Assembly: GCA_902794035.1 (NCBI GenBank)
Contig: CADBFN010000010.1
Span: forward strand, 1-50,394
DNA: 50,394 nucleotides
From: an uncultured bacterium
Lineage (GTDB): Bacteria; Cyanobacteriota; Vampirovibrionia; Gastranaerophilales; Gastranaerophilaceae
Direction of reading: 5' to 3'
Below the pieces are notes generated by a model. The model was not told where the DNA came from. It did no database searches and saw only the letters and a program-made list of their open reading frames with translations. How positions within the stretch are numbered: position 1 is the stretch's first letter; each line of letters opens with the position of its first letter. Position numbers and translations under genes: made by a program. Positions 710 through 34,759 of this stretch are shown here, piece after piece.

Positions 710-737
710 TTGAAGTTATCATTTTCTGGTGTAATAT
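710..737 (+). promoter_or_regulatory. Promoter of the secreted barrel-like gene
   Basis: TTGAAG (710-715), a 16-bp spacer and TAATAT (732-737). The -10 box ends 7 nt before the ATG at 745 and no Shine-Dalgarno sequence is visible, so the transcript may begin at or next to the start codon. Confidence 0.5.
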
Positions 738-744
738 ATGGGAT

Positions 745-1686
745 ATGAGACGCTTTATCATAGCCAGTTTATTATTTTCATTTACATTTATGCCCGCATT
801 CTCACAAGAGTTTGACATAAATTCTTTTTTTGTTGCACAAAACGGCGTTTTTAAATATCACATACCTGATGATGACGATATTACAGAATCAGAAAATGAT
901 AGTAATAATTCAGCAACAAATATACAAGAAACTGAAACTCACGAAGATATTATAAGTGATGATATTACTGCTGACACATCCGGGATTGATAAATATGATC
1001 CTGAAACGGCGAATGAGAATAACGACAATGATAATGACAATTACAACATTGATGATATGTATAGCTACATACTGCAAGGGTATGCCGAATATTTTGATGA
1101 TGAAGAAAATACTGTTGCATTAGAATTACCGAAAAATGAATATTTGGCTTTAAATATAAAAAAGCCGTCTGTTGTAGAAGGAAAATATTTCGGTTATCTT
1201 CAATCTTCGCCATCATTATTTGACAATAATTACAGTAAATTTAATTCTACCGAATACAGCATAGCCCCAATATCAGGCTCAAGTTCAAAAAGCATTGGAG
1301 GATTTAGTGCCGGAACAACATACTCTCAGGGCATTGATTATGGAGAGCTTGAACAATCCTCAGGAATATTTTCAAAATATCAGTACAAAAATTTTGCAAT
1401 AAGCACCTCTTATGCAAAAACCGTAAATACAACAAACAACAATTATAATGATAATTTCTATATCATACCTGAGTTAAAATTGAATCAGTATTTAACTATA
1501 AAAAATATTCTTTCTGCTGATACCGCTAAAAAGCGCAAGAAAGCTGAAATTGTTTTATCTGTAAACCCGTTTGGCAAAAAGGATTATGACAGATTACGAA
1601 TAGAGTTTGGCGCAAGTGAAACTTATGACGAAATAACCAATTCTCTTAAAAATCAATTTAAATTCACAACAAATTACAGATTTTAG
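745..1686 (+). CDS. Secreted protein, possible outer-membrane beta-barrel
   Basis: I do not recognise the family. Residues 1-20 form a clear signal peptide with an A-F-S-Q cleavage region. Residues about 45-120 are low-complexity and very rich in Asp, Glu and Asn. From about 145 to the end the sequence alternates polar and hydrophobic residues in strand-like segments and ends in aromatic Phe (NYRF). A C-terminal Phe and strand-like segments are typical of outer-membrane barrel proteins, so an outer-membrane or surface location is my inference. The gene stands alone, divergent from the tRNA-Leu transcript. No ribosome binding site is visible; see the promoter at 710-737. A secreted non-barrel protein is also possible. 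Confidence 0.75.
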   Translation: MRRFIIASLLFSFTFMPAFSQEFDINSFFVAQNGVFKYHIPDDDDITESENDSNNSATNIQETETHEDIISDDITADTSGIDKYDPETANENNDNDNDNYNIDDMYSYILQGYAEYFDDEENTVALELPKNEYLALNIKKPSVVEGKYFGYLQSSPSLFDNNYSKFNSTEYSIAPISGSSSKSIGGFSAGTTYSQGIDYGELEQSSGIFSKYQYKNFAISTSYAKTVNTTNNNYNDNFYIIPELKLNQYLTIKNILSADTAKKRKKAEIVLSVNPFGKKDYDRLRIEFGASETYDEITNSLKNQFKFTTNYRF

Positions 1687-1802
1687 CTTTTTTACAAATC
1701 ATTGTAAATTATTGTTACAATCATCTTAAAAATTCTAAAGATTTTAATTATTTACTCCGATTACAAATATGTAGAGTTTAATACATATTAAGGAGTGTAG
1801 AA

Positions 1803-2012
1803 ATGTCAGAAAAGAGAATTATGGATGAAGAAGATTTGATGATTGATTATGCTGAAATGACCAGCTTTGATTTCGGAACATTATCAAATGAAGAAATGGA
1901 TACATTAAACAGAATAACAGATATTGAGTATATGAGAAAGCCCTATCCGTTTAAATATGGCAACTTTAAAATGGCAGATTTCTTCCACGAACTGTTGTCA
2001 GACAGAGGTTAA
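1803..2012 (+). CDS. Small acidic hypothetical protein (69 aa)
   Basis: The start is supported by an AAGGAG ribosome binding site 8 nt upstream (the A of the ATG is at 1803). The protein is acidic in its first 40 residues (MSEKRIMDEEDLMIDYAEM), then has a basic/aromatic patch near residue 45. There is no signal peptide or membrane segment. It is followed after 26 nt by another small gene, so the two are probably one transcript ending at the hairpin at 2311. I do not recognise a family. A role as a small cytosolic regulatory or adaptor protein would be a guess. Confidence 0.65.
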   Translation: MSEKRIMDEEDLMIDYAEMTSFDFGTLSNEEMDTLNRITDIEYMRKPYPFKYGNFKMADFFHELLSDRG

Positions 2013-2038
2013 TAGCTGAGATTTTGGAGATATGTGAC

Positions 2039-2278
2039 ATGGACAGCGACAGATGGTTATTTGAAAAAGGATGCTTTTTAGCAAATTGGAATGACGACAT
2101 AATTCCTGCTAAAAAAGAAACACCTGTTGAATCAGTTTCAAAATTGCAAGACAAAGATTTAAATACTTTACTTGCGGAACTAGAGGATATCAAACAACAC
2201 ATTCAGGATGTCAGAGAAAGACAGTGGCATTTGGCAAAGCTGATTGAATACCACAATCAGGGATTTGCACAAACATAA
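2039..2278 (+). CDS. Small hypothetical protein (79 aa), helical C-terminus
   Basis: I place the start at the ATG at 2039 because GGAG sits about 9 nt upstream at 2026-2029. A TTG further upstream at 2024 is in frame but has no such site. The N-terminal half (MDSDRWLFEKGCFLANWNDD) is rich in aromatics. The C-terminal half from about residue 40 is a heptad-like helix (LNTLLAELEDIKQHIQDVRE) suited to self-association. It follows the gene at 1803-2012 and precedes a strong hairpin terminator. Family unknown to me. Confidence 0.6.
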   Translation: MDSDRWLFEKGCFLANWNDDIIPAKKETPVESVSKLQDKDLNTLLAELEDIKQHIQDVRERQWHLAKLIEYHNQGFAQT

Positions 2279-2310
2279 CGGCTACCGGAAATATTTTTTA
2301 AAATTTAAAA

Positions 2311-2344
2311 GGCATAAACAGTATCGTTTATGCCTTATTGTTTT
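2311..2344 (+). terminator. Rho-independent terminator
   Basis: GGCATAAAC (2311-2319) pairs with GTTTATGCC (2326-2334) across a 6-nt loop and is followed by TTATTGTTTT. It ends the two small genes upstream. Confidence 0.8.
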
Positions 2345-2368
2345 ATCGCACCTTATATAAAATTCTTT

Positions 2369-2755
2369 TTAGTAATATGATTTCCAACCTTTGCCGCCGG
2401 CATTCCAATAAGAATTGCCTTGACTTCTTTGTTTTGTTCTTATTCTTACTCTTGGCTCTTTTTGAACAGTAACCGGTTCGCCTTTAGCTGCAGCATTTTG
2501 AGGAATCATATTCGGATCTGTTTCAATTGAAACTCCGTTTGGATTATAAGTAGCTTCGTAAATTCCGTTATTTACATTTGCTGTAGCATTAACACCACTA
2601 TTTGCATATTGATGAGCTTCAGTTGATATCAAAGAAGCTCCGGAATTTTCAGGTGCAACTGATAATACAGTTTTTAAAGGTAATAACCCTTCTGCACCGG
2701 CAAATGAAGGAACTAATACCATTACTGCCAATACTAATAATGCACTTTTTTTCAT
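2369..2755 (-). CDS. Small secreted protein
   Basis: A classic signal peptide (MKKSALLVLAVMVLVPSFAGA, cleavage after AGA) is followed by about 107 residues rich in Asn, Ala and Ser. The C-terminal tail is basic and aromatic (RVRIRTKQR then GGKGWKSYY). An AGGAG ribosome binding site lies 8 nt before the ATG. It is convergent with the small genes at 1803-2278 and divergent from lipA. I do not recognise the mature part. A small exported or surface-associated protein is the most that can be said. Confidence 0.75.
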   Translation of the reverse strand: MKKSALLVLAVMVLVPSFAGAEGLLPLKTVLSVAPENSGASLISTEAHQYANSGVNATANVNNGIYEATYNPNGVSIETDPNMIPQNAAAKGEPVTVQKEPRVRIRTKQRSQGNSYWNAGGKGWKSYY

Positions 2756-2871
2756 TTTTTACTCCTATTATTCATTTTATATTACAATTTATACTATAAT
2801 TATATTATAACATAAAGCAAAACAAAAATTAATTTGCTATATATATATATAAAACAAATGAGGGATAAAAT

Positions 2872-3714
2872 TTGCGTACAAGACTACCACAATATTTGAA
2901 AAGACCAATAATAGATACCGATAACACACGCGAAGTCAGACGAATATTAAAAGCAAACTGTCTTAATACAGTTTGTGAAAATGCCAGATGTCCAAATAAA
3001 AATGAATGTTATACCAAACATACTGCAACTTTTTTAATTATGGGGAATAATTGTACAAGAAATTGCAAATACTGCAATATAAATTGCGATAAGCCTGAGC
3101 CCTTAGATGAAAAAGAACCTCAAAATATCGCTCAGGCGGTTAAAGCTCTCGGGTTGAAATATGCAGTTATAACTTCTGTTACAAGAGATGACCTACCTGA
3201 CGGAGGAGCACTTCATTTTGCAAATTGCATTGAACAAATAAGAAAAATATGCCCGCAGACAAAAATTGAAATACTTACCCCTGATTTTAAAAATAATCAA
3301 AAAGCATTAGATATTATAATAAAAGCCCATCCTGATGTGTTTAATCATAATATCGAAGCGGTGAAAGATATATTTAAAATTGTCCGTCCTCAAGGGAATT
3401 ATGAAAATTCAATTTCGGTATTGTCTTATATCAAAAAACACAGTGACATTAAAACAAAATCAGGTCTGATTATTGGTCTGGGAGAAACTTTTGAACAAAT
3501 CAGAGAAACTATGCACGATTTATATGATGCAGGTTGTGATATTTTGACAATCGGGCAATACATTCAACCATCAAAGAAGCACTTTGAAGTCGCAAAATAT
3601 TACTCTCTCGAAGAATATGACATCCTAAAACAAATGGCTAAAGAAGCAGGATTTAAAAATTACCAAATCGGACCGCTGGTAAGAAGCTCCTATAACGCGT
3701 CAAACTTAATTTAA
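2872..3714 (+). CDS. lipA: Lipoyl synthase
   Basis: This radical SAM enzyme inserts two sulfurs into octanoyl groups on lipoyl carrier proteins. The auxiliary cluster cysteines are C35, C40 and C46 (CX4CX5C) and the radical SAM cluster cysteines are C61, C65 and C68 (CX3CX2C). The conserved RSSY motif lies near the C-terminus (VRSSYNAS). The 280-residue length is at the short end for the family. The start codon is TTG, supported by GAGGGA about 9 nt upstream and by the family N-terminus. No lipB or lipoyl-dependent dehydrogenase gene is adjacent. The gene stands alone and ends near the hairpin at 3742. Confidence 0.97.
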   Translation: MRTRLPQYLKRPIIDTDNTREVRRILKANCLNTVCENARCPNKNECYTKHTATFLIMGNNCTRNCKYCNINCDKPEPLDEKEPQNIAQAVKALGLKYAVITSVTRDDLPDGGALHFANCIEQIRKICPQTKIEILTPDFKNNQKALDIIIKAHPDVFNHNIEAVKDIFKIVRPQGNYENSISVLSYIKKHSDIKTKSGLIIGLGETFEQIRETMHDLYDAGCDILTIGQYIQPSKKHFEVAKYYSLEEYDILKQMAKEAGFKNYQIGPLVRSSYNASNLI

Positions 3715-3741
3715 ACCATTATTAGCAAACAAATCCTAAAA

Positions 3742-3770
3742 AAGCGGGCCTAAGTACCCGCTTAAACTTT
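3742..3770. terminator. Bidirectional terminator between convergent genes
   Basis: AAGCGGG (3742-3748) pairs with CCCGCTT (3757-3763), with A residues before and T-rich sequence after. It lies between lipA and the small convergent gene at 3770-3928 and can serve both. Confidence 0.75.
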
Positions 3771-3928
3771 TACATAAGACCTAAAACTTTTTTGTACCAA
3801 GAGAAAGACTCAAGTTCTGTACCATTGAAAGTTGTTTTTGCACACTGATGTTTCAAGTAATCTTCAAACTCATCAGCAAACGGTGATTTAATCTTTTTTA
3901 CTTCCTTTTCCGTTGTTACTGTTGCCAT
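3770..3928 (-). CDS. Small hypothetical protein (52 aa)
   Basis: I choose the ATG at 3928 because an AAAGGAG site lies 7 nt upstream. A longer in-frame start at 3976 would place that site inside the gene. The 52 residues begin MATVTTEKEVKKIKSPFADE and are charged, with a possible short helix around residues 17-30 and a C-terminal KKVLGLM. No signal peptide is visible. Family unknown. It is a single gene flanked by lipA on one side and a 225-bp gap on the other. Confidence 0.6.
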   Translation of the reverse strand: MATVTTEKEVKKIKSPFADEFEDYLKHQCAKTTFNGTELESFSWYKKVLGLM

Positions 3929-4138
3929 AAAACACTCCTTTACACTTTTTAGGTCATGCGACCCCCTATATGCCACTTATTATAACACACAATTAATATG
4001 TTTTAAAGTTATAAAACGCAGTCAGAAATTTTTTTGCTACTATTAAAGGGTTTTAGATGTAAATTTTTGTAAAGATGTTTTGTTTTTATAATCTTTTGCA
4101 CATTAATACAAAATTTTGGCAAAATTTTGAACTGTTTG

Positions 4139-4147
4139 TGCTATAAT
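4139..4147 (+). promoter_or_regulatory. Extended -10 box 6 nt before the start codon
   Basis: TGC-TATAAT (4139-4147) is followed by six bases and then ATG at 4154. A weak -35-like TTGGCA lies at 4116-4121 with a long 20-bp spacer. Transcription would start about at the ATG, predicting a leaderless mRNA for the pterin-binding gene and the operon behind it. Confidence 0.65.
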
Positions 4148-4153
4148 TTTTGT

Positions 4154-5065
4154 ATGATAATTATTGGAGAAAACATACATATAATCTCAAAAAATGTCCG
4201 TACAGCATTAGAAGAAAGAGACAGAAATTTTGTAGAAAATTTGATAAAAATTATGCAAAATTGTGATGCCATTGATTTTAATGTAGGTCCTGCCAAGGGA
4301 AAACTTGACATGGTTTTTGAATGGCTGATTTCATTATCTGACGGTAAAAATATATCTTTTGATTCTTCAAATATTGAAGCTATAGAAAATGGACTAAAGT
4401 TATCAGATAATTGTAAAAATTGTTTTATAAACAGCACAAATGCTGATGATGACAAACTGGAAAAATTAACAGATTTAGCATGCCGGTATGACTGTAATCT
4501 TATTGCATTAACTATGTCAAAAGAAACAAGTATTCCTCACAATGCGGATTTGAGAATGGAACTTGTCTTTAAAATCTATGAAAAATGTATGGAAAAAGGT
4601 ATAAGCTCTGATAAAATATTCTTTGATCCTTTGATTTTACCTGTCAAAGTTGATCAATCTCAGGCTCTTGAAGTTTTAAATACTATACAAATCATAAAAG
4701 AAAGCTTTGAACCAAAGGTTAATACCGTTGTCGGATTATCTAATATTTCTAACGGTTTACCAAATGAAATTCGTCCTTTGATTAATCGTGTGTATCTGGC
4801 AATGTTATTCGGTGCCGGACTGGATTGCGTTATCGCTGATGCTAAAGATGAAGAACTTATCAGGATAATAAGAATGTTAGAATGTAACAATCCGCAAAAA
4901 GATATTGATAATTTGTACATAAAACTTGCAAATATGATACAATGTTTTGGGAATATAGAAGATATTGAATATAATCAAAATGACACAGAACAAAAAAATA
5001 TAATAAAAACAGCAGCCATTTTGCTTAATAAAAAAATATTTTCTGACAGCTACATTCACATATAG
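4154..5065 (+). CDS. Pterin-binding methyltransferase-like protein (AcsE/MeTr type)
   Basis: The 303-residue TIM-barrel protein matches methyltetrahydrofolate:corrinoid methyltransferases. It has the N-terminal MIIIGENIH, the DFNVGPAKG strand-loop that binds the pterin, SFDSSNIEAIENGLK and FINSTNAD in order. These enzymes move a methyl group from methyl-THF to a corrinoid protein, as in MetH or the acetyl-CoA pathway. No corrinoid protein or CO dehydrogenase gene is in the window, so the acceptor is unknown; a split methionine synthase is one option. The start at 4154 is chosen because the protein family begins here and a promoter -10 box ends 6 nt upstream. It is followed 11 nt later by the TPR gene. 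Confidence 0.8.
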   Translation: MIIIGENIHIISKNVRTALEERDRNFVENLIKIMQNCDAIDFNVGPAKGKLDMVFEWLISLSDGKNISFDSSNIEAIENGLKLSDNCKNCFINSTNADDDKLEKLTDLACRYDCNLIALTMSKETSIPHNADLRMELVFKIYEKCMEKGISSDKIFFDPLILPVKVDQSQALEVLNTIQIIKESFEPKVNTVVGLSNISNGLPNEIRPLINRVYLAMLFGAGLDCVIADAKDEELIRIIRMLECNNPQKDIDNLYIKLANMIQCFGNIEDIEYNQNDTEQKNIIKTAAILLNKKIFSDSYIHI

Positions 5066-5076
5066 AGAATAAAAAG

Positions 5077-7173: not shown

Positions 7174-7200
7174 TGTAAAGCGACAGGACTACAAAACGAT

Positions 7201-7620: not shown

Positions 7621-7621
7621 A

Positions 7622-8915: not shown

Positions 8916-8924
8916 TGATATAAT
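8916..8924 (+). promoter_or_regulatory. Extended -10 box just before mfd
   Basis: TGA-TATAAT (8916-8924) ends six bases before the mfd ATG at 8931. No Shine-Dalgarno sequence is present, again predicting a leaderless transcript. Confidence 0.65.
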
Positions 8925-8930
8925 ATTACT

Positions 8931-11900
8931 ATGTTTAAAATTAATGAAAACGACATACCGTATCCTTATGAACGATTCAGAGCAAGATTAAAAGACGGTG
9001 AGTCTTTTGCGGTAACAGGTCTGACGACTTTTTTAAGACTTTATCTGCTCTCAAAAATAAAAAATTACACTAAGAAAAAAGTTCTGATGATTACTTCAAC
9101 AGAGCAAAGTGCGTTGAAATACCAAAGTGATTTGAAAACTATCTTCGATTTGGATACAGAGATCATGCCTTTTCAGGATATTTCACCTTATGAAACCGTT
9201 AATCCGAATTTATATGACTACGCAAAGCAAATTGAATTACTATTATCAAAACCAAATATTGTTATTTGTCCTGTAAAATCATTACTTGAAAAATTCCCAA
9301 ATTCTGATTTTTTCAAAAAAAACAGTTTTAAAATAAAAGTCGGAGATACCCTTGATTTGGGTAAACTTGCAAAAAAACTTGTGAATTTGGGATATAAAAA
9401 AACTACAATGGTTAGTGACATCTCAGAATTCAGTATTAGAGGAGATATTGCAGATATTTATTCCCTGAACTCTCACCCTGTGCGAATTGAATTGTGGGGA
9501 GATGAAGTTACGGATATAAGATATTTTGATAATGAAACACAAAAATCTGTAGAAAAAACAAAAGAAACTACCATTTACCCGATATACAAATTTATAACCG
9601 CAGGACAGGAAGAACTTGTACAGGCTTTGCAGGGGGAAACAGAAGATGATATTCCTGAAGAAAACTATTTTGAAGGAATAGAAGTTTATCAAAATTATTT
9701 CAATAAAAATTTGACAGGAATTTTGGATTATTTTAAAGATTACACCTTAGTTTTTGATGAAACGACAGAAATTTATTCGAAATATGAATTACTTGATGAA
9801 GAATCAGATAAAAGACTTGAAGAAAATTTAAAACAAGGTTTGATTAATAAAATTAACGAAGAAGATAGCATTTGCAATCATTATTCATATGAAGAATTTT
9901 TGCGTAAAACATCTTATTTTCAAAAAATCGGTTTTAATAATTTTATAGACGGAAGCATGTTTGATTTGATTGAATTTAATGCTCAGCCATTAAGGAACTT
10001 TGAAGCGAATTTAGAAGATATCTCAAATTATATAAAAGAGCATGCCGATTTTAAAATAATAATTGCGACAAACTATCCTGAACGAGTAAAAGAAATACTT
10101 TCCGAAAAAGAAATTTATAATATAGATTACGAACCCGCAACTGTATGTGGAGGCTGCATTTTAGAAGATTTCAGAACAATAATAATCACTGACCGTGAAA
10201 TGTTTAACAAACGTCCAAAGGAAGTAACTTCTGCTAAAAAGTCATATTATAAAGAAAAACCTGAATTTATCGAAAATATTAATGATATTAAAATCGGTGA
10301 ATATGTTGTTCATACAATTCATGGTTTGGGAATATACAAAGGCTTGTCAAAACAGGAAATTGACGGGCAGCTTAAAGATTATCTTACTATTGAATATGCA
10401 AACAAAGACAGATTGCATATTCCTGCCGAACAAATCAATCTTTTGTGCCGTTACAGAGGCTCAGGAACTGCAAAACCGAAATTATCAAAAATGGGCGGCA
10501 GAGATTGGGAAAACACAAAAACTAAAGTTAAAAAAGCAGTTGAAACAGTTGCGTATGACCTTCTGAGATTATATGCAAGACGTAAAATGCAGGGAGGAAT
10601 TGAATTTTTACCTGATACAAACTGGCAGATAGAAATGGAAGAAGCATTTGAATACACCGAAACTCCTGATCAGTTAAAAGCTATCACAGAAGTAAAATCT
10701 GATATGGAATCTTCTCAGCCTATGGACAGACTAATTTGCGGAGATGTGGGTTTTGGCAAAACAGAAGTTGCAATGCGTGCAATATTTAAAGCCATAACTT
10801 CAGGTAAACAGGCTGCCGTAATTGTACCTACAACAATTCTTGCTCTCCAGCACTATCAAACAATGGAAGAACGATTCAGACCATTTGGAGTAAAAGTTGA
10901 ATTATTATCAAGATTCAGAACACCAAAAGAACAAAAAGAAACAATTAAACATCTTGCAACAGGTGAATGTGATGTTGTTGTCGGGACTCACAGACTTTTA
11001 CAAGACGGTATTGTATTTAAAGATTTGGGAATACTTGTCATTGATGAAGAACACCGCTTTGGAGTCCGTCACAAAGAAAGATTAAAACAACTGCGGGAAA
11101 ATATTGATATTCTTTCAATGTCTGCAACTCCTATTCCAAGAACACTCTATATGTCACTTTCTGGAATAAAAGATATTTCATTAATTAATACTCCGCCTAA
11201 AAACAGACTGCCAATTAAGACATATGTCGGGAATTGGGATGAAAACATGGTCAGAAATGCCATAAATCATGAAATAGACAGAGAAGGACAGGTATTTTAT
11301 CTTTATAATCGCGTTGAAACAATAATGGAGATGAAAACTCTTTTACAAAGAATCGTTCCAAATGCAAGAATTGCGGTCGGGCATGGTCAAATGGATGAAA
11401 AAGAACTTGAAGAAGTTATTGTTAATTTTGCTAATCACGAATATGATATTTTACTTGCAACAACGATTATAGAAAACGGAATTGATATTCCAAATGCCAA
11501 TACAATGATTATTCATGGTGCTGACAGATTTGGACTTGCACAGTTATATCAACTTCGCGGACGTGTAGGCAGAAGTGAAAGGCAGGCTTATTGTTACTGT
11601 TTTTACAAACGCAGCAAAGAATTATCAAAAGACGCAACAGACAGACTAAAAGCTATAAAAGAATTCACCACATTAGGAAGCGGCTATCAAATAGCAATGA
11701 GAGATGTTGAAATCCGCGGAGTCGGGAATATCTTAGGAACAAAGCAGCATGGGCACATGGTCAATGTAGGTTTTGACACATATTGCGAACTATTGGAAGA
11801 AGCTGTAAAAGAGCTTCAGGGCGAAAAAATAAATAAAACACAACCTACGATTGTGGATATTAATATTACTGCATATATTCCTGATGAATGGGTTGGCTCA

Positions 11901-12317
11901 TCAGAACAAAAAATGATTGAATATAAACGTCTGGCGGATGTAAAAACAGAAACAGAACTTGATTATATAGTTGAGGAATGGAAAGACAGATTTTCAAAGC
12001 CGCCTGAATCTGTCGAGAATTTAATCAAGTTAATCAGATTACGTCTAAACGCAACTGATATAAGGATAAGTGCAATCAGAGAAACACAAGATAATATAAG
12101 AATTTATACACCATACTCAAAAGCGGAATGGAATCTTGTATCAAAAACTCTACCATCAAATATCTCAAGGAAAATAAAATTTACAATAGCTCCAAAGACT
12201 TGCACAGAGGGAACTTCCATTTTAATTTTTGACACATCTTATGTAAATTTTGATGAAATATTTAACATTTTGAATGATTTGTTTTATTATATACGCAAGG
12301 TTAGTTACGAATATTAA
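8931..12317 (+). CDS. mfd: Transcription-repair coupling factor Mfd
   Basis: At 1128 residues this is full length. Mfd removes stalled RNA polymerase and recruits UvrABC. The order is UvrB-like N-terminal modules, RNA polymerase-interacting domain near 450-520 (IGEYVVHTIHGLGIYKG opens it), SF2 helicase lobes, then the C-terminal TRCF domain. Walker A is GDVGFGKT at residues 604-611 and the Walker B box DEEH is at 705-708. SATPIPRT and the RGRVGRS box are both present. The ATG at 8931 is chosen because it matches the family start and follows the -10 box directly. The foldase gene starts 19 nt after its stop. Confidence 0.98.
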   Translation: MFKINENDIPYPYERFRARLKDGESFAVTGLTTFLRLYLLSKIKNYTKKKVLMITSTEQSALKYQSDLKTIFDLDTEIMPFQDISPYETVNPNLYDYAKQIELLLSKPNIVICPVKSLLEKFPNSDFFKKNSFKIKVGDTLDLGKLAKKLVNLGYKKTTMVSDISEFSIRGDIADIYSLNSHPVRIELWGDEVTDIRYFDNETQKSVEKTKETTIYPIYKFITAGQEELVQALQGETEDDIPEENYFEGIEVYQNYFNKNLTGILDYFKDYTLVFDETTEIYSKYELLDEESDKRLEENLKQGLINKINEEDSICNHYSYEEFLRKTSYFQKIGFNNFIDGSMFDLIEFNAQPLRNFEANLEDISNYIKEHADFKIIIATNYPERVKEILSEKEIYNIDYEPATVCGGCILEDFRTIIITDREMFNKRPKEVTSAKKSYYKEKPEFIENINDIKIGEYVVHTIHGLGIYKGLSKQEIDGQLKDYLTIEYANKDRLHIPAEQINLLCRYRGSGTAKPKLSKMGGRDWENTKTKVKKAVETVAYDLLRLYARRKMQGGIEFLPDTNWQIEMEEAFEYTETPDQLKAITEVKSDMESSQPMDRLICGDVGFGKTEVAMRAIFKAITSGKQAAVIVPTTILALQHYQTMEERFRPFGVKVELLSRFRTPKEQKETIKHLATGECDVVVGTHRLLQDGIVFKDLGILVIDEEHRFGVRHKERLKQLRENIDILSMSATPIPRTLYMSLSGIKDISLINTPPKNRLPIKTYVGNWDENMVRNAINHEIDREGQVFYLYNRVETIMEMKTLLQRIVPNARIAVGHGQMDEKELEEVIVNFANHEYDILLATTIIENGIDIPNANTMIIHGADRFGLAQLYQLRGRVGRSERQAYCYCFYKRSKELSKDATDRLKAIKEFTTLGSGYQIAMRDVEIRGVGNILGTKQHGHMVNVGFDTYCELLEEAVKELQGEKINKTQPTIVDINITAYIPDEWVGSSEQKMIEYKRLADVKTETELDYIVEEWKDRFSKPPESVENLIKLIRLRLNATDIRISAIRETQDNIRIYTPYSKAEWNLVSKTLPSNISRKIKFTIAPKTCTEGTSILIFDTSYVNFDEIFNILNDLFYYIRKVSYEY

Positions 12318-14285: not shown

Positions 14286-15002
14286 CTATATCAAAACAAA
14301 CGGACTGTATTCATCTGCATAAACTATTTTTACATCATTACCGATAATTTTTGCAAACACAGGCAAAATAAGTATTTCGCTTTCAAAATGTCCGATATCA
14401 TATACGACAATACTACTATCTAATGCCGTATGAAATTTCAAATCGCCTGTAACAAGACAATCTGCACCAAATTCTTTCGCATCTTTTATAAATTCGCTTC
14501 CTGAACCGGCACAGAATGCAATTCTTTTCAGTTGCTCAACACGCTTATTATTTATAATTCTTGCATTTGGGGAAATTGGTTTTATTAGTTTATTAAACTC
14601 CGCAACAGTTGTTTTATAATCTATAATTCTTAAAAAATCATGTTCAACAGATATTTTATAATTGTTTAATCCAAGTTTTTCAATAATTGTATCTGTTGTA
14701 CCGCCCTGTGCTTTGTCCATATTAGTATGCGCACAATAAATATTAATTTGGGGAACATAAGATTCTGAAACAAGTTCAGAATGACAATTAATCCAAAACA
14801 TTGGGTGATGGGAAATTATCAAATCGCAATTTTGCTCTTTTGCCTGTTTGATAATATCATCTGTAACTGTCAGGCAAAGCATAATTTTATTAATTTCGTC
14901 ATAACCTTCAACATCAACCGCCCACCCGGAACAATCCCAATCTTCCTGAGTTTCAGTGGGCGCAAAATCTTCTATACGCTTTGCTATTTTGTACTTATCC
15001 AT
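14286..15002 (-). CDS. Nif3-like dinuclear metal centre protein with inserted repeat peptide
   Basis: This is a Nif3/YbgI family protein; the family forms rings with two metal ions per subunit, and its physiological reaction is unsettled. Visible motifs are EDWDCSGW (usually EDWDNVGL), ISHHPMFW and CAHTNMDKAQGG, and near the C-terminus the YDIGHFESE stretch (metal-binding His and Glu). At residues 73-81 it reads CHSELVSES, encoded by a palindromic repeat at 14762-14785 and replacing the usual segment between HHP and the Y-x-AHTN strand. The frame stays open and the other metal motifs are intact, so it may still work. It overlaps the coaBC 3' end by 19 nt. Confidence 0.88.
   Translation of the reverse strand: MDKYKIAKRIEDFAPTETQEDWDCSGWAVDVEGYDEINKIMLCLTVTDDIIKQAKEQNCDLIISHHPMFWINCHSELVSESYVPQINIYCAHTNMDKAQGGTTDTIIEKLGLNNYKISVEHDFLRIIDYKTTVAEFNKLIKPISPNARIINNKRVEQLKRIAFCAGSGSEFIKDAKEFGADCLVTGDLKFHTALDSSIVVYDIGHFESEILILPVFAKIIGNDVKIVYADEYSPFVLI
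14762..14785 (-). repeat. Palindromic repeat encoding CHSELVSES
   Basis: On the plus strand ATTCTGAA-ACAAG-TTCAGAAT is an inverted repeat followed by GAC. On the coding strand it is translated in frame as C-H-S-E-L-V-S-E-S inside the Nif3-like gene. I recall this same peptide and DNA word recurring as a dispersed repeat in unrelated bacteria; that memory needs a database check. Confidence 0.7.
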
Positions 15003-16204
15003 TCCAGAATTTTCCTTGCAATAATTTTTTTAGGTGCTTTTTCTAATTTGGTAATATTACCATTTTTATCTAAAATTGTAACTTCATTTTCATCAGAATT
15101 AAACCCAATATCCTTGCGGGAAATATCGTTTGCGATCAAAAAATCGCAGCCTTTTTTCTCAATTTTTGCTTTTGCATTTTCAAGTAAGTTTTCTGATTCC
15201 GCGCAAAAACCTACAATAATACAATTGCGTTCTCTCGCCCCTTTGGGGAGAGGGTAAGGGTGAGGGGCTAATTTCTTTTGGCACAAATCTGCCAAAATAT
15301 CGGGGTTTTTAACAAGTTCAAGGGTAATTGTATCTTCATCCCCTTTTTTGATTTTTTGTTCGGATTGTTCTTTTACTCTGTAATCAGCAACCGCAGCAGC
15401 CATAATTACATAATCTGCTGTTTCAAATTCTTTTTCAACTGCTTCTTTCATTTCAAGTGCTGATTTTACTATTACTTTTTTAAACGGGACTTCAAAATCT
15501 TTTGTAGTAATAAATACAACTTCCGCCCCCATATCATAAGCCGATTTTGCAAGTGCCAATCCCATTTTACCTGATGAATAATTTGAAATATAGCGAACCG
15601 GATCAATTTCTTCTATTGTTCCGCCTGCAGTAATTACAACTTTTTCCCCTTTTAATGTTTCACTGTAATTTAAGGCTTCATCAACTGCATTGTATATTTT
15701 TTTTAATGAACAAAGTCTGCCTTTACCATTATATCCGCAAGCCAAAAAACCTTCCTCAGGAGGCAAATATTCTATTCCCCTTGCCTGCAGTGTTTTAAGA
15801 TTTTTTTGTACCGATTCATTTTGCCACATGTTACAATTCATAGCCGGAGCAATAATCATTTTTTTTGAAAATGCACAGGCAACAGAAGTGAGCAAATTAT
15901 CTGCAATTCCTTGTGCGATTTTGCCTATTGTATTCGCAGTTGCAGGTGCAATAAGCATAATATCTGCCCAATCAGATAATGAAATATGTTCAGGCTTCCA
16001 GTTTTGCGGAGTAAATTCACCTTCATAAACTTCATTTTGACTCAAATTTTGCAGAGTTAATTTTGTGACAAAATTCAAGGCATTGGGAGTGCAGATTATT
16101 TTAACTTCTGCTCCTGATTTTTTAAAATCACGAATTAGACTGCAAATCTTATATGCAGCAATTCCGCCCGTTATACCTATTAAAATGTGTTTATTTTGCA
16201 TCAT
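14984..16204 (-). CDS. coaBC: Bifunctional CoaBC (phosphopantothenoylcysteine synthetase/decarboxylase)
   Basis: This enzyme makes 4'-phosphopantetheine for coenzyme A in two steps. The flavin-dependent decarboxylase domain (about 1-185) shows GITGGIAAYK, the catalytic His73 in EHISLSDWAD, PAMNCNMW and the Cys loop GFLACGYNGKGRL. The synthetase domain follows from ITAGGTIEEIDPVRYISN with KNPDI near residue 305. Between KNPDILADLCQKK and NCIIVGF about 14 extra residues (LAPHPYPLPKGARER) are inserted in frame by a repeat. They fall before the conserved strand leading to the E-x-EN-L-L-ENA motif. The gene overlaps gmk by 14 nt and the Nif3-like gene by 19 nt. No rpoZ lies between gmk and coaBC. 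Confidence 0.95.
   Translation of the reverse strand: MMQNKHILIGITGGIAAYKICSLIRDFKKSGAEVKIICTPNALNFVTKLTLQNLSQNEVYEGEFTPQNWKPEHISLSDWADIMLIAPATANTIGKIAQGIADNLLTSVACAFSKKMIIAPAMNCNMWQNESVQKNLKTLQARGIEYLPPEEGFLACGYNGKGRLCSLKKIYNAVDEALNYSETLKGEKVVITAGGTIEEIDPVRYISNYSSGKMGLALAKSAYDMGAEVVFITTKDFEVPFKKVIVKSALEMKEAVEKEFETADYVIMAAAVADYRVKEQSEQKIKKGDEDTITLELVKNPDILADLCQKKLAPHPYPLPKGARERNCIIVGFCAESENLLENAKAKIEKKGCDFLIANDISRKDIGFNSDENEVTILDKNGNITKLEKAPKKIIARKILEWISTK
15231..15268 (-). repeat. GC-rich palindromic repeat encoding HPYPLPKGARE
   Basis: The segment is far richer in G and C than its surroundings and contains CTCTCGCCCC-TTT-GGGGAGAGG, a near-palindrome. It is read in frame in coaBC as LAPHPYPLPKGARER. 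I recall the PHPxPLPKGARE peptide as a typical translated dispersed repeat in many bacteria; this is memory, not a search. Confidence 0.7.
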
Positions 16205-16751
16205 TTGATTTTACTATTCTTTCAATTTCTTCAACTGCACGATCTATGTTGTCATTAATCACAACGTAATCGTATTTTTCAGAACGTTCAAGTTCTGTTT
16301 TTACTTGCGCCAAACGTTTTTGAATAGTTGATTCATCTTCTGTATGACGACCGCGCAGGCGTTGTTCAAGTTCTTCCACACTAGGCGGAGCTATGAAAAT
16401 TAAAACAGCCTCAGGCATTTTTTCTTTAACCTGCAAAGCTCCATTTGTTTCAATTTCCAAAATTATGTTATAGCCTTCTTCAAATTTTTGTTTTATATAT
16501 TTTTTCTTTGTACCGTAATAATTTTCAGCAAATTGCGCATGTTCTAAAAACTTATCATCCTTGATATTTTGCTCAAATTTTTCTTTCGTCAAAAAGAAAT
16601 AATGAACACCGTCAATTTCTCCCTGACGGGGTTTTCTTGTTGTGCAGGAAACAGAAAGAATAAAGTCTTTATTTCTTTCCATAAATTTATTTATAACGGT
16701 GCCTTTGCCTACACCTGAACACCCTGATATTACAAACAATTTTTTATTCAT
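16191..16751 (-). CDS. gmk: Guanylate kinase
   Basis: This 186-residue enzyme phosphorylates GMP to GDP with ATP. The P-loop is SGCSGVGKGT at residues 9-18. The GMP-binding region follows with TTRKPRQGEIDGVHYFF, the ILEIETNGALQV strand (usually ILEIDVQGA) and the RLRGRHTEDE lid. The length is slightly short of the usual 200-210. The ATG at 16751 is preceded by six bases and then an extended -10 box, with no Shine-Dalgarno site. It heads the operon continuing into coaBC, the Nif3-like gene and the membrane protein gene. Confidence 0.96.
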   Translation of the reverse strand: MNKKLFVISGCSGVGKGTVINKFMERNKDFILSVSCTTRKPRQGEIDGVHYFFLTKEKFEQNIKDDKFLEHAQFAENYYGTKKKYIKQKFEEGYNIILEIETNGALQVKEKMPEAVLIFIAPPSVEELEQRLRGRHTEDESTIQKRLAQVKTELERSEKYDYVVINDNIDRAVEEIERIVKSNDAK

Positions 16752-16757: not shown

Positions 16758-16766
16758 ATTATAGCA
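16758..16766 (-). promoter_or_regulatory. Extended -10 box for gmk, predicted leaderless start
   Basis: On the minus strand TGC-TATAAT ends six bases before the gmk start codon at 16751. The same spacing is seen before mfd and several other genes here. Confidence 0.65.
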
Positions 16767-19074: not shown

Positions 19075-19083
19075 TGATAAAAT
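19075..19083 (+). promoter_or_regulatory. Extended -10 box before the receiver gene
   Basis: TGA-TAAAAT (19075-19083) ends 7 nt before the ATG at 19091. No Shine-Dalgarno site is present. Predicted leaderless start. Confidence 0.5.
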
Positions 19084-19090: not shown

Positions 19091-19471
19091 ATGAGAGTTT
19101 TAATAGTTGATGATGTCCCCGGGTGGATAAGATTTCATAAAAATAATCTCGAATACTTAAATATAGAGAATTTAGATATTGACACCGCAATCAGTGCAAA
19201 TGAAGCATTGGCAAAAATAGAAGTTTCTATAGACCAACCCTATGATGCAATATTTACAGACTTGCAAATGGAAAGCAATTTTTTACCAAAACTTGCTGGG
19301 GAATGGCTTATTGAGCAAATTCAAATGTTTAAGCAATACAATAAAGCCAAAATTACAATAATTTCCGCTTCAGCTGACATTGAACTGATTGCAAAAAAAT
19401 ATAATGTAAATTATTTATCAAAATTTAGTGCAAGAAATTCTGAAGCAGAAGTTTACAGACAATTTTTATAA
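19091..19471 (+). CDS. Single-domain response regulator (receiver domain)
   Basis: The 126 residues form one CheY-like receiver domain with no output domain. The acidic pair D7-D8, the phospho-acceptor D57 (in IFTDLQM), the switch residue S92 (in IIISAS) and the conserved K111 are all present. An unusually long stretch between D57 and S92 includes ESNFLPKLAGEWL. No histidine kinase is in the window, so the partner is unknown. Its last 19 nt overlap the 3' end of the convergent aldolase-like gene. Confidence 0.85.
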   Translation: MRVLIVDDVPGWIRFHKNNLEYLNIENLDIDTAISANEALAKIEVSIDQPYDAIFTDLQMESNFLPKLAGEWLIEQIQMFKQYNKAKITIISASADIELIAKKYNVNYLSKFSARNSEAEVYRQFL

Positions 19472-20151
19472 TCGTCCCAATTAAGATTCCCGCCTAAATT
19501 ATTTTGGCAGACATCTACTGAAAATGCTCCGCAGTTTATTGCTTTTAATGTGTTATCAAGTGCAAGATTTCTGTCATTATGTGCGTGAAAACTTATTTTA
19601 TCAAAACCGACACTTCTTAGTTTTTCAAAATACAAAGGTATATCTTTTGGCGTTACTGTACTGTAACTATCAGCAATATATATACTTTCGAGAATATCTT
19701 TATGCTCCCAATTTTTCAAAATATTATAATGTTCGTCCTTTACATTTGGAATTTCCATTAATTGTAAAAATACATTATATTTATTTTGTTTTAAGGCTTC
19801 GCAAACCAAAAGACTGTCAGCAATATCTGCAGGATGACAGGCGATTCTGACAAAATCAACGACATCATCAGTTGCAGAATTAAAATCTTTTATATTTATT
19901 CTTTTATAATCTGCCATAACACCTATTTTTAATGAGCCTTTATTATTAATAAATTGTTCCAAAAATAACCTGTCACAAGAAAAAAATTCCCCTTTGCTTT
20001 CTTTATCAATATAATTACGATACCCTATTTCACAATAATCTATCTTTTCGGATTTTAATTTTTCTATATAACGAAATACAAAATCTGCATCAAAATTCCA
20101 GTTATTTTGATGCCCGCCATCTCTGATACTACAGTCCAAAATCTTTACCAT
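19453..20151 (-). CDS. DRE-TIM aldolase/HMGL-like protein, short
   Basis: At 232 residues this covers one TIM barrel. It begins MVKILDCSIRDGGHQNNW, where RDGG is the family's metal and substrate motif. It later has SFHAHNDRNLALDNTL with the HxH metal ligands. The end, VDVCQNNLGGNLNWDD, stands where related aldolases have LGRGAGN. Relatives include 4-hydroxy-2-oxovalerate aldolase and HMG-CoA lyase, but the substrate cannot be told. It lacks the extra C-terminal domain of many relatives. The ATG at 20151 is chosen because an extended -10 box ends 6 nt upstream and the family begins there. It is divergent from the radical SAM gene. Confidence 0.75.
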   Translation of the reverse strand: MVKILDCSIRDGGHQNNWNFDADFVFRYIEKLKSEKIDYCEIGYRNYIDKESKGEFFSCDRLFLEQFINNKGSLKIGVMADYKRINIKDFNSATDDVVDFVRIACHPADIADSLLVCEALKQNKYNVFLQLMEIPNVKDEHYNILKNWEHKDILESIYIADSYSTVTPKDIPLYFEKLRSVGFDKISFHAHNDRNLALDNTLKAINCGAFSVDVCQNNLGGNLNWDDYKNCL

Positions 20152-20157: not shown

Positions 20158-20166
20158 ATTATAACA
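20158..20166 (-). promoter_or_regulatory. Extended -10 box for the aldolase-like gene
   Basis: On the minus strand TGT-TATAAT ends six bases before the ATG at 20151. No Shine-Dalgarno site. Predicted leaderless start. Confidence 0.6.
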
Positions 20167-25131: not shown

Positions 25132-25145
25132 AATTCATTTCGTGC

Positions 25146-25151
25146 TATTAT
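25146..25151 (+). promoter_or_regulatory. Possible -10 box before the sigma factor gene
   Basis: TATTAT preceded by TGC (25143-25145) forms an extended -10 box, 20 nt before the ATG. An ACGAGG ribosome binding site lies between them. Confidence 0.5.
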
Positions 25152-25171
25152 ATATTTATACGAGGATAAAA

Positions 25172-26188
25172 ATGAGCAAAGAATTTGATAGTTTCGGAAT
25201 AATATCTGATGAGATTTCGGATGAGAGTGTTGATTTTCATAAGCTTCAACTTGAAAGCGAAGACGAAGATCAAGATGGCGAAGATGTATTAAAATCCGTT
25301 GAAACTCCAAAAATTCAGGAGAGCATCGGTTCTGTAAGCGCAGATGACAGTGTGAAAATATATTTAAGACAAATTGGGAAAATTCCTCTTTTAACGACAG
25401 AAGAAGAATTGGACCTTGCAAAAAAAATTCAGGAGAATAAAGATCGTTTTGCAAAAGATGTGCTTGTAAATGCGAATTTAAGGTTGGTAGTCAGTATCGC
25501 CAAAAAATATATTGGCAGAGGTTTATCATTCTTAGATTTAATTCAGGAAGGTAACGTTGGTTTAATAAAGGCTGCAGGGCGTTTTGATTATCGTAAAGGA
25601 TATAAATTTTCGACTTACGCAACCTGGTGGATTCAGCAATCAATTACCCGTGCTATTGCCGATAAGGCAAGAATTATCAGACTCCCTATTCACATGATAG
25701 ATTCAATAAGTAAGATACGAAAAGCAACTTTAGATTTGACATCTGAATTGGGCAGAACTCCTACAAAACAGGAAATTGCTTATCGTATGGGGTTATCAGT
25801 TCAAAAATTAACTTCTATTATAAAATCGGCTCAATCTACAATCAGCATGGATACACCTGCTACAAACGATGAAGAATCTTCAAAAATCGCAGATTTTATA
25901 GTAGATAATTCTACAATTACACCGGATAGCAGAGTATCACAGGATAATTTACTTGAAGACATCAGAACTATTTTGAATCAATTGAGTCAAAAAGAAAGAG
26001 ATGTTTTAATCTTGCGCTATGGACTTGATAATAATGGTTCAAAAAAGACTCTTGACGAAATCGGCACTCAATATGGAGTTTCCAGAGAAAGAATACGACA
26101 GATTGAAACAAGAGCGATTTCAAAACTTAAAAAATTATGTAAAAATGAGAAATTAAGAGACGGATTGGTAAATTATTTTGCAACATAA
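25172..26188 (+). CDS. RpoD-type RNA polymerase sigma factor
   Basis: The 338-residue protein starts with a short acidic stretch (about 1-55), then region 1.2 ([16 protein letters not shown]), region 2 with the promoter-melting motif [20 protein letters not shown], region 3 ([13 protein letters not shown]) and region 4.2 with [18 protein letters not shown]. It is a group 1 or group 2 sigma-70 that recognises TATAAT and TTGACA. No full-length region 1.1 is present and the protein is compact. Whether it is the primary sigma factor cannot be told without the rest of the genome. It ends at a strong terminator. Confidence 0.95.
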
Positions 26189-29070: not shown

Positions 29071-29108
29071 ATTAAAGTCCAGATGCCTTTTGGCATCTGG
29101 ACTTTAAT
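29071..29108. repeat. 17-bp perfect palindrome abutting tRNA-Ser
   Basis: ATTAAAGTCCAGATGCC (29071-29087) and its exact complement (29092-29108) flank TTTT. It begins 1 nt beyond the tRNA 3' end on the minus strand. It could terminate or process the tRNA transcript, but it lacks the usual T run, so I call it a hairpin only. Confidence 0.75.
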
Positions 29109-29109
29109 T

Positions 29110-29198
29110 CGGAAAAGGTGGGATTTGAACCCACGGTGCAGGTAACCCCACACAACACCTTAGCAGGGTGCCGCCTTAAGCCTCTCGGCCACTTTTCC
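29110..29198 (-). tRNA. tRNA-Ser (anticodon GCT), CCA not encoded
   Basis: Read on the minus strand, the acceptor stem is GGAAAAG/CTTTTCC, followed by discriminator G. The anticodon arm CACC-CTGCTAA-GGTG gives anticodon GCT for serine AGC/AGT codons. A long variable arm and GGTTCAAATCC T-arm fit tRNA-Ser. The bases after the discriminator are AAT, so CCA must be added by enzyme, unlike the tRNA-Leu at 154-237. It is 89 nt without CCA. Confidence 0.95.
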
Positions 29199-29331
29199 AA
29201 TACGGCATAACCTATACCAAGATTACATTCCCTATTCTAACACAAATTATTTTTTTTGAAAAGACTTTTAAAAAAAGTTTTTGTTCTGTATAATGAATTT
29301 ATCAGATATATTTATAAGAAAGGGTTTTATA

Positions 29332-29847: not shown

Positions 29848-29870
29848 TTTTATTTTTAAATAATCCTTAA

Positions 29871-32480: not shown

Positions 32481-32604
32481 TTTTCTTCTTCCATCTTTTG
32501 GTATTCTCTGTCATTTAAAAACAAAAAGCAATATTTTTTTGCTCAAACTTTACATGATTTTACATTAATTTTAAATTTCAAGCTATTCAATAATTTTCAG
32601 TAAT

Positions 32605-32634
32605 AAAAAAGCCTTCTTTAAAGAAGGCTTTTTT
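32605..32634 (-). terminator. Terminator of the symporter-UDG operon
   Basis: AAAAAAGCCTTCTTT and AAAGAAGGCTTTTTT form one perfect 30-nt palindrome just beyond the UDG stop codon on the minus strand. It can also act on the other strand. Confidence 0.85.
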
Positions 32635-32645
32635 ATTTTTCGAAT

Positions 32646-33290
32646 TTATACCATAGTTAAACTTCCAAATTGTACATTTTTAACGGATTTTTCCGTATCA
32701 GATAAAAATTTCGATTTTATTTCCGCAAGATCCTGCTGCATTAAACGACGCGGAGAACCTTCATCCATTGAATGATTTCTTAAAAGATATGAAGGATGGA
32801 AAATTGCCATTGCAGGATATGTTTTTCCATTGATTGTAACGTCAAACCATTTGCCTCTTACCTTTGAAATCTGAACTTTTTTATCATCCCAAAAAGATTT
32901 TAATGATGTTGCACCACAAAATATAATTGCCTTAGGATTCATAATATCAATTTGGGCTGTCATATACTTCTCGCACAAAGATTTTTCGACCTCGGTCGGA
33001 ACTCTGTTTTCAGGAGGGCGACATTTTACCGTATTAATTATATATAAATCATCTTGTCTTGAAATTCCGGCCTCAGCCAAAAAATCATTTAGCAATTTGC
33101 CAGCACGACCAACAAAAGGAGTTCCTGTTTCATCTTCTGTTTCTCCCGGAGCTTCCCCTATCAAAACAACTCTTGCAGTTTCAGGATTCCCGTCTGAAAA
33201 TACAACATTATTTCTTGTATTACCCAAAATACAATCATGGCAATTTTCACATTTTTCGCGCACAATCTCAAGACATTCTTTTTTAATCAT
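32646..33290 (-). CDS. Uracil-DNA glycosylase, family 4 (4Fe-4S)
   Basis: This 214-residue enzyme removes uracil from DNA. The first cysteines of the iron-sulfur cluster are C14 and C17 (CENC), and later C-R-P-P-E-N (CRPPENR) and the SLCEKY Cys complete it. Motif A is GEAPGETEDETGTPFVGRAGKLL and motif B is HPSYLLRN. The ATG overlaps the stop of the symporter gene (TAATG), with GGAGAG upstream, so the two are translated in sequence. The pairing with an amino-acid symporter gives no functional clue. Confidence 0.95.
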   Translation of the reverse strand: MIKKECLEIVREKCENCHDCILGNTRNNVVFSDGNPETARVVLIGEAPGETEDETGTPFVGRAGKLLNDFLAEAGISRQDDLYIINTVKCRPPENRVPTEVEKSLCEKYMTAQIDIMNPKAIIFCGATSLKSFWDDKKVQISKVRGKWFDVTINGKTYPAMAIFHPSYLLRNHSMDEGSPRRLMQQDLAEIKSKFLSDTEKSVKNVQFGSLTMV

Positions 33291-34744
33291 TAATTCTCTC
33301 CCTTAAAAAATCCGATATTATATTTTTTACAATATCTGCGTAGTTCTTTCATTATTATACCTGATAATAAAAATACTGCAATCAAATTTGGAACAGCTAA
33401 AAATAAAGTGAATCCGTCAGACAGACCAACAACACTTTTTAAATTCATAGCCGAACCTATTATAATAAATATGCAATAAATTATCTGAAAAGTTCTTGTC
33501 TTAATTTTTGAATCCCCGAATAAAAATGTCCAGCTTTTCACACCGTAATATGAACCGCAAAGCATTGTTGAAAGTACAAAAAATGCGGCCATAACGGTTA
33601 AAAGCACAGGGAAATAAACCCACACACTTTCAAACGCATGCGAAGTTAATTCAATGCCGGCAGGAGTTCCCAAATAATCTTTATATGCGCCGGTAACAAC
33701 GATAATAAATGCCGTTGCCGAGCCTACTACTACCGTATCAACAAAAGGCTGAAGCATTGCAATAAACGCCTGCGCAACAGGTTTACTGGTTTTGACCGCT
33801 GAAAATGCAATAGGCGCAGTTCCAAGACCTGCTTCATTTGCGAACATTGCACGCCTGAATCCCCATAACATGCATCCGAAAACGCCTCCGCCGATGATTG
33901 CCTGAGGTTTAAAGGCTTCACTGACAATTAAACATATTGTATTTGGAATATTTTGTATATTTAAAACACAAATTAAAAATGCACTTAAAACATACAAACT
34001 GCACATTAAAGGAGTAACTTTTGAAGTAAATTTACCAATAGCTTTGATTCCGCCAATAACAGTAACATAAGTAATTACTGCAACTATTAAGCCAAACAGC
34101 CAACGACAATTAGTAAATAATCCGGTTACATTTGAAATCTGTGTCGTTATTGCATTTATCTGAAATAAATTCCAGCCGCCAATCATAGCAAAAATGCAGC
34201 ATACGGCATAAATATTGGCAAGATATTTTGTATAAGGTTTTATCCATTTTGCACGAAGCCCATTAATTATATAGTACATTGGACCGCCTGAAGATGAGCC
34301 GTCCTTGTTTATTTGACGAAATTTTATTCCTAACAAAACTTCTGAAAATTTTAATGCCATTGAAAATACACCGGCAGTAATCATCCAAAATATTACCCCC
34401 GGTCCGCCGATAGAAACAGCAAGAGCAGATCCGACAATGTTACCCATTCCGGCAGAGGCAGAAATTGTTGCCGTCAGCGCCTGAAATGATGAAACTTCAC
34501 CTTTTCTTTTTTTCTTTATTACGTCTTGATGTTTGTATTTTTGAGTCAGTAAATCAAGTGCATGTTTAAAACCCCAAATTCCGATAAATCTTGTCCTTAT
34601 TGTAAAGTACAGAGCAGCAATTATTAATAATGCAATCAAAAATTCGACACGCACACCATTTATAGTGACGTGAGAAAAAATTATCCCTGAAATTTTATTT
34701 GCTATAGGGGATAGAATACTATCAATTCGGCCATCTAAATTCAT
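33290..34744 (-). CDS. Sodium:alanine/glycine symporter (AGCS family)
   Basis: The 484-residue inner-membrane protein takes up small neutral amino acids with Na+. It has about 10-11 membrane helices and the family signature FANEAGLGTAPIAFSAV (around 305-325). GPMYYIINGL and the early SASAGMGNIVGSALA (about 92-106) are also family motifs. The amino acid specificity cannot be read from the sequence. The ATG at 34744 has an extended -10 box ending 6 nt upstream and no Shine-Dalgarno site. UDG follows in the same transcript. Confidence 0.95.
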   Translation of the reverse strand: MNLDGRIDSILSPIANKISGIIFSHVTINGVRVEFLIALLIIAALYFTIRTRFIGIWGFKHALDLLTQKYKHQDVIKKKRKGEVSSFQALTATISASAGMGNIVGSALAVSIGGPGVIFWMITAGVFSMALKFSEVLLGIKFRQINKDGSSSGGPMYYIINGLRAKWIKPYTKYLANIYAVCCIFAMIGGWNLFQINAITTQISNVTGLFTNCRWLFGLIVAVITYVTVIGGIKAIGKFTSKVTPLMCSLYVLSAFLICVLNIQNIPNTICLIVSEAFKPQAIIGGGVFGCMLWGFRRAMFANEAGLGTAPIAFSAVKTSKPVAQAFIAMLQPFVDTVVVGSATAFIIVVTGAYKDYLGTPAGIELTSHAFESVWVYFPVLLTVMAAFFVLSTMLCGSYYGVKSWTFLFGDSKIKTRTFQIIYCIFIIIGSAMNLKSVVGLSDGFTLFLAVPNLIAVFLLSGIIMKELRRYCKKYNIGFFKGEN

Positions 34745-34750
34745 AAAACA

Positions 34751-34759
34751 ATAATATCA
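34751..34759 (-). promoter_or_regulatory. Extended -10 box for the symporter gene
   Basis: On the minus strand TGA-TATTAT ends six bases before the ATG at 34744. Predicted leaderless start. Confidence 0.6.

Follow-up and report, generated by a model that had tools for sequence, protein, structure and literature searches.

How are genes transcribed and translated that carry a promoter -10 box directly in front of their start codon? This question is raised by a stretch of 50,394 nucleotides from an uncultured bacterium of the family Gastranaerophilaceae, a relative of the Cyanobacteria that lives in the gut (contig CADBFN010000010.1, contig 10 of assembly GCA_902794035.1), which is called the window in the following. 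A preliminary description of the window had reported seven -10 boxes, six of them extended by an upstream TGn, at 6 to 7 nt before an ATG, and had predicted mRNAs without a 5' leader from them. All seven boxes and their spacings are present in the sequence as first described, including four copies of TGnTATAAT at 6 nt. According to the data presented here, the window very probably holds members of a gene class driven by extended -10 promoters, whose predicted mRNAs are leaderless and which exists beside genes led by Shine-Dalgarno (SD) sites. This reading of the 6-nt sites is supported by a position-specific excess of the spacing, by its conservation at mfd, gmk, a pterin-binding gene and a symporter gene in relatives, by the base preceding the start codon and by terminator-like hairpins abutting the box in some relatives.

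The 6-nt spacing in the window and in the genome

The strict motif TGnTATAAT-N6-ATG occurs four times in the window, compared to a mean of 0.083 in 300 dinucleotide shuffles of the window, none of which reached four. The strict class is far beyond chance in the window, and the earlier impression that the repeated spacing is hard to explain by chance is borne out for this form. The sites and the genes behind them are as follows.

4139..4147, + strand: extended -10 box TGCTATAAT, 6 nt 5' of the ATG at 4154
4154..5065, + strand: Pterin_bind protein (PF00809, by Pfam) of 303 amino acids, leaderless candidate
8916..8924, + strand: extended -10 box TGATATAAT, 6 nt 5' of the ATG at 8931
8931..12317, + strand: mfd, transcription-repair coupling factor (TRCF, CarD_TRCF_RID, UvrB_inter and helicase domains), leaderless candidate
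16758..16766, - strand: extended -10 box TGCTATAAT, 6 nt 5' of the ATG at 16751
16191..16751, - strand: gmk, guanylate kinase (PF00625, by Pfam), leaderless candidate
20158..20166, - strand: extended -10 box TGTTATAAT, 6 nt 5' of the ATG at 20151
19453..20151, - strand: HMGL-like protein (PF00682, by Pfam), leaderless candidate
34751..34759, - strand: extended -10 box TGATATTAT, 6 nt 5' of the ATG at 34744
33290..34744, - strand: sodium:alanine symporter family protein (PF01235, by Pfam), leaderless candidate
19075..19083, + strand: less certain extended -10 box TGATAAAAT, 7 nt 5' of the ATG at 19091, passing the motif model (see below) at 7 nt
19091..19471, + strand: short response-regulator receiver protein (PF00072, by Pfam), possibly leaderless or with a 1-nt leader
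732..737, + strand: TAATAT without TGn, 7 nt 5' of the ATG at 745, leaderless status unsupported

The source assembly comprises 1.79 Mb in 47 contigs and is 94.5% complete. Genome-wide, TGnTATAAT at 6 or 7 nt from an ATG was found at 46 sites, compared to 6 for the reversed pattern. A distance profile was recorded from a sample of 850,394 bases (the window and 40 stretches of 20 kb; GC content 33%), in which each TGnTATAAT was related to ATGs opening at least 70 codons and no distance was favoured. The profile showed 18 cases at 6 nt, with 0, 2, 0, 1, 0 and 0 cases at 0 to 5 nt and 2, 0 and 2 at 7 to 9 nt. Beyond 9 nt it was almost empty until a second, broad hump at about 23 to 34 nt, and the two humps fit two classes of translation start. 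The reversed motif reached at most 2 at any distance, and GTG and TTG at 6 nt from TGnTATAAT were both counted zero times in this profile. TATAAT without TGn peaked at 6 nt as well (26, compared to 1 to 15 elsewhere), and for TAwwwT without TGn (w, A or T) the same profile showed no spike at 6 nt. The distance profile had been proposed as a check of the leaderless prediction, and the excess at 6 nt was seen in this sample as well as in all 170 family genomes described below. Of the spacing originally given as 6 to 7 nt, the 6-nt part stands and the 7-nt part does not, since N7 (box at 7 nt) shows no excess over N9 (box at 9 nt) in the genus.

A position weight motif model was additionally applied to 795 genes, whose starts were taken from a simple coding-potential caller made for this analysis rather than from a standard caller. 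It placed the motif at 6 nt in 48 genes, whereas each of the remaining distances between 0 and 20 nt received 0 to 8 genes. Unlike the distance profile, the model is biased toward 6 nt by its training on sites with this spacing. The counts at the in-frame distances of 0, 3, 9, 12 and 15 nt (7, 6, 5, 2 and 4) were assumed to represent the chance level. Altogether, the model lists 56 candidate genes, and the gene at 745 is not among them. The proposal of this gene as a possible leaderless case was dropped, as its box lacks TGn and was missed by the model, and a single site of this kind may be chance; its product gave no Pfam match at an E-value of 0.001. Two further model matches in the window were set aside by eye, at 14984 due to an overlap with the upstream gene and at 29292 due to an SD-like run before an earlier ATG.

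The base in front of the start codon played no part in the selection of the sites. A pyrimidine at -1 was found in 47 of the 48 six-nt genes, compared to 358 of 598 other ATG genes (Fisher p 3e-9); of the other ATG genes that lack an SD-like site, 183 of 285 have it. The strict sites of the own genome showed it in 31 of 33 cases. In bacteria, the -10 hexamer is usually separated by 6 nt from the first transcribed base, and transcription usually starts at a purine that follows a pyrimidine. The pyrimidine at -1 would therefore be expected if the A of the ATG is the first base of the transcript.

Regarding the other promoter elements, the TGn ahead of the hexamer is pronounced, with frequencies of 0.95 for T at -15 and 0.73 for G at -14 among the 48 sites, which were partly seeded on TGn. 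A search for the -35 box gave a mean best match to TTGACA of 3.34 out of 6, compared to 3.09 in shuffles and 3.54 in leadered promoters, so that a -35 box is weak at best, including in the leadered promoters. The window also encodes a sigma factor of the sigma-70 type (25142-26188, + strand), which comprises regions 1.2, 2, 3 and 4; its region 3 presumably retains the histidine by which the TG of an extended -10 promoter is recognised.

The start codon at 6 nt is mostly ATG. No GTG was found at this position among the called genes of the own genome. N6-GTG strings were counted at 5.8 compared to 2.4 per genome in 21 genus genomes, and GTG was used in 6 of 56 mfd loci (see below), which softens the idea of a strict use of AUG. 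A few TGnTAwAAT-N6-GTG strings recurred letter for letter in several genus genomes, for example those ending in CTGATTGTG, which suggests that they are conserved leaderless GUG genes.

The preliminary description had also assumed that two translation-start classes coexist, and this is supported by an SD-like site at the called start of 289 of the 739 other genes. Of 21 genus genomes, 2 yielded a 16S gene, and the CCTCC anti-SD end was intact in both. The candidates tend to head a transcription unit: 30 of the 56 have a divergent neighbour, compared to 262 of all 795 genes, another 19 follow a gene on the same strand at a distance of 40 nt or more, and 6 follow one at less than 40 nt.

Orthologues and relatives

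The best 80 of 363 mfd loci were compared, with several in-frame starts tried per locus. They come mostly from metagenome assemblies, many of which are labelled Candidatus Gastranaerophilales or Melainabacteria. The records of three close relatives (L061, L078 and L112) are titled Muribaculaceae, Brachyspira and Fusobacterium and have the appearance of mixed or wrongly labelled assemblies. At 56 of the 80 loci, a -10-type hexamer precedes an in-frame start by exactly 6 nt (ATG in 50, GTG in 6). All 56 carry a T at -1, and 47 of them carry the TG, for which the loci were not chosen. Among the other 24 loci, 15 picked by eye showed TATAAT at 7 nt; all 15 have T at -1 as well, and 4 have the TG. 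Taken together, the box lies 6 or 7 nt before the start at 71 of the 80 loci, and T precedes the start codon in each of these 71.

With the exception of the loci without such a box, the DNA above the mfd box varies widely between the loci while the spacing from box to ATG is kept. In 12 of the 56 six-nt loci, a terminator-like hairpin with a perfect stem and a T run ends 22 to 32 nt before the start. At locus L109, the terminator scan showed a 12-pair stem and T run that leave 21 nt before the ATG, and the scan found no two-hexamer promoter on the mfd strand of this locus. Transcription arriving from above would run into such a terminator, and a -35 box would fall inside the stem, which lies at about that position in the 12 loci as well.

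For the three other genes, the 30 best-scoring loci were used out of 61 listed for gmk, 39 for the pterin-binding gene and more than 80 for the symporter, so that the samples are skewed to near relatives; 29 of the 30 symporter loci could be placed. The hexamer was found at 6 nt in 18 of 30 loci for gmk, 20 of 30 for the pterin-binding gene and 17 of 29 for the symporter. A spacing of 7 nt added 3, 0 and 6 loci, respectively, and an SD-like site was present in 4, 4 and 0 of the remaining loci. Judged by these loci, many near relatives retain the leaderless-type start, which others have lost. Several gmk relatives (within L151-L180) showed two TATAAT strings in direct succession, of which the downstream one adjoins the ATG, and a -10-type hexamer at 0 nt was found in 13 of the 30 gmk loci.

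On the level of whole genomes, TGnTAwAAT at 6 nt (N6) and at 9 nt (N9) before ATG was compared in 386 genomes, comprising 20 of the genus, 150 others of the family, 3 of the order, 10 of the class and 203 of the remaining phylum. N6 exceeded N9 in 170 of 170 family genomes, with totals of 7009 and 1964. The 20 genus genomes contributed 936 N6 sites (46.8 per genome) and 288 N9 sites (14.4 per genome), and the 150 other family genomes 6073 and 1676, with N6 above N9 in every single genome of both sets. The N6 and N9 counts were 48 and 24 in the order and 111 and 79 in the class. In the 203 phylum genomes outside the class, the values were 1468 and 1211, and N6 exceeded N9 in 107 of them. N7, counted in a different draw of 21 genus genomes, gave 321 sites or 15.3 per genome, compared to 6.5 for the reversed control, and is thus about as frequent as N9.

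Two more distant groups of the phylum were noticed in these counts. In family f9, a distant family with five genomes (G004, G010, G018, G032 and G038), N6 was 76 and N9 was 36, and this family may perhaps represent a second leaderless lineage. Family f32 showed a weak excess, with 57 N6 and 26 N9 sites in 57 genomes.

The pyrimidine at -1 was also found at 71 of 76 N6 sites of G345, a genome of another genus, and in more distant members of the phylum at only 41 of 99 sampled sites. In a search for leaderless genes common to both genomes, 30 of the 76 N6 sites of G345 were compared with the own-genome sample, and 11 could be placed. At least three of these (L235, L239 and L244) have the box at 6 nt in both genomes, and at least two (L220 and L221) have an SD-like run in the own genome.

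Predicted leaderless start and alternative explanations

The promoter consensus would be close to T-R-T-G-n-T-A-w-A-A-T (R, purine), with the A of the start codon 7 bases past the last T of the -10 box. This A stands at the normal position of a transcription start, with T or C at -1 and A at +1, and polymerase would be expected to start there. The resulting mRNA would have no 5' leader, so that ribosomes would have to initiate on it without SD contact, and the other genes would use ordinary promoters further upstream together with SD sites. Inferred parts of this model are the position of the RNA 5' end, the sigma factor and, from the example of known leaderless mRNAs, translation without a leader.

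Strings resembling TATAAT are frequent in AT-rich DNA, as is ATG, and a reader could have picked out those which happen to be aligned. The GC content of 33% and the missing 6-nt spike of TAwwwT without TGn are in line with such an effect of chance. The same is true for the loose motif TGnTAwwwT-N6/7-ATG, which was found six times in the window compared to 2.5 expected (10 of 300 shuffles reached six) and, judged on the window alone, is marginally beyond chance. Furthermore, 5 of the 30 searched N6 sites of G345 open fewer than 20 codons, so that the raw N6 counts are partly chance. For the class as a whole, pure chance was rejected after comparison with the shuffles, the reversed patterns, the other distances and the other clades, and the strict count in the window, the spike at one spacing shared by all 170 family genomes, the conservation in orthologues and the bias at -1 leave it a very low probability. 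More weight can be given to very short leaders, in which transcription would start 1 to 4 nt before the AUG and the start codon would merely lie near the 5' end. This is nevertheless unlikely: the 7-nt spacing of 15 of the 80 mfd loci and the spacing of 9 or 10 nt at some symporter loci, which would mean a short leader there, are in favour of it, but the 7-nt mfd cases keep the T before the A of the AUG in 15 of 15, and the genus shows no 7-nt excess over 9 nt. The boxes could also be secondary promoters or regulator sites, with the main mRNA coming from further upstream, and the six candidates that lie less than 40 nt behind a gene on the same strand may indeed be read through. The terminator-like hairpins directly above the box, seen at 12 of the 56 six-nt mfd loci, the divergent neighbour of 30 of the 56 candidates and the spacing to the ATG that is kept where the DNA above varies make this explanation very improbable as well.

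The loose class in the window, the short reading frames in G345 and the longer symporter spacings also count against predicted leaderless mRNAs as the explanation of the class, and several other observations have to be set beside them. The strong motif is confined to about 6% of the genes, a minority of 48 out of 795, and judging from the in-frame distances 2 to 7 of these may be chance. Nine of the 80 mfd loci have no box at 6 or 7 nt; their upstream DNA is mutually similar and coding-like by eye, as if mfd lay directly behind another gene. Some orthologues of gmk and of the pterin-binding gene have an SD-like site instead, and the state is therefore not conserved for many genes. In the flanks of the mfd loci (L051-L130), 27 TGnTAwAAT sites have a spacing of 6 nt and 14 a spacing of 37 nt to an ATG that begins a frame of 70 codons or more; the loci are homologous and thus not independent, and the 37-nt sites are probably one conserved leadered promoter counted repeatedly. 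An SD-like site was found in none of the 56 candidates, an absence that is largely built in because the -10 box fills most of the scanned stretch. The search for a 16S gene in the own assembly gave no hit, and in 14 of the 56 model-selected genes the start differs from the coding-potential call.

Relation to known leaderless genes and significance

According to the available text of two papers (PMC3160421, PMC12340547), leaderless genes with an adjacent -10 box occur in many bacteria, most of all in Actinobacteria and Deinococcus-Thermus, and in D. radiodurans TAnnnT lies beside the open reading frame in nearly one third of the genes. The sites described here share with Deinococcus-Thermus the -10 box about 6 to 7 nt from the start codon, the leaderless mRNA (here predicted) and the presence of genes led by ribosome binding sites alongside. 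They differ in the TGn-extended TAwAAT, the fraction of about 6% of called genes and the GC content of 33%, compared to TAnnnT and high GC in Deinococcus-Thermus. A similar promoter is found in low-GC Firmicutes such as Lactococcus, an unrelated lineage for which the available text of PMC3160421 describes a strong TG before the Pribnow box that is said to replace the -35 region; low GC and a TGn-extended -10 box adjoining the start are common to both.

With respect to the own phylum, Cyanobacteria and Melainabacteria are absent from the list of groups with leaderless genes in the accessible part of PMC3160421, and the part of PMC9581028 at hand takes Cyanobacteria as an example of an upstream signal that is weak and has no explanation, and cites a survey predicting leaderless transcription in 21.6% of bacterial species. 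On the other hand, the passages of PMC5397173 at hand credit Cyanobacteria with leaderless mRNAs, and those of PMC9938897 describe cvkR and cas12k as leaderless in Anabaena and cite 51 leaderless cases in Synechocystis. The photosynthetic Cyanobacteria are a related lineage in which, as far as these sources go, transcription starts have been mapped to start codons; the phylum genomes outside the class differ from the family by their small N6 excess and the missing pyrimidine bias at -1. In the literature searched, which excluded subscription papers and preprints, no earlier report of leaderless genes in Gastranaerophilales or Melainabacteria was found. The sites thus appear to be a known kind of gene start in an apparently unreported clade, with a tight spacing and a strong TGn.

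A more far-reaching interpretation, which we put forward tentatively and hold to be somewhat doubtful, is a family-wide fusion of promoter and translation start. It would consist of an element of about 18 to 20 bases, TRTGn-TAwAAT-n5-Y-ATG (Y, pyrimidine), which would tolerate a terminator immediately upstream and be conserved as a whole at mfd and similar genes across most of the family, giving way to an SD-led start in some other lineages. Gastranaerophilales would then possess a leaderless regime of their own, absent from most of their photosynthetic sisters. Such a regime is made less likely by the leaderless mRNAs credited to Cyanobacteria in the part of PMC5397173 referred to above, and by N6 exceeding N9 in family f9 and, weakly, in f32.

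For the annotation of these genomes, the finding means that gene callers expecting an SD site may misplace such starts, as the coding-potential caller used here put 14 of the 56 elsewhere. The mfd promoter offers a compact and conserved test case for leaderless transcription, and a lineage related to the Cyanobacteria would be added to the map of leaderless initiation.

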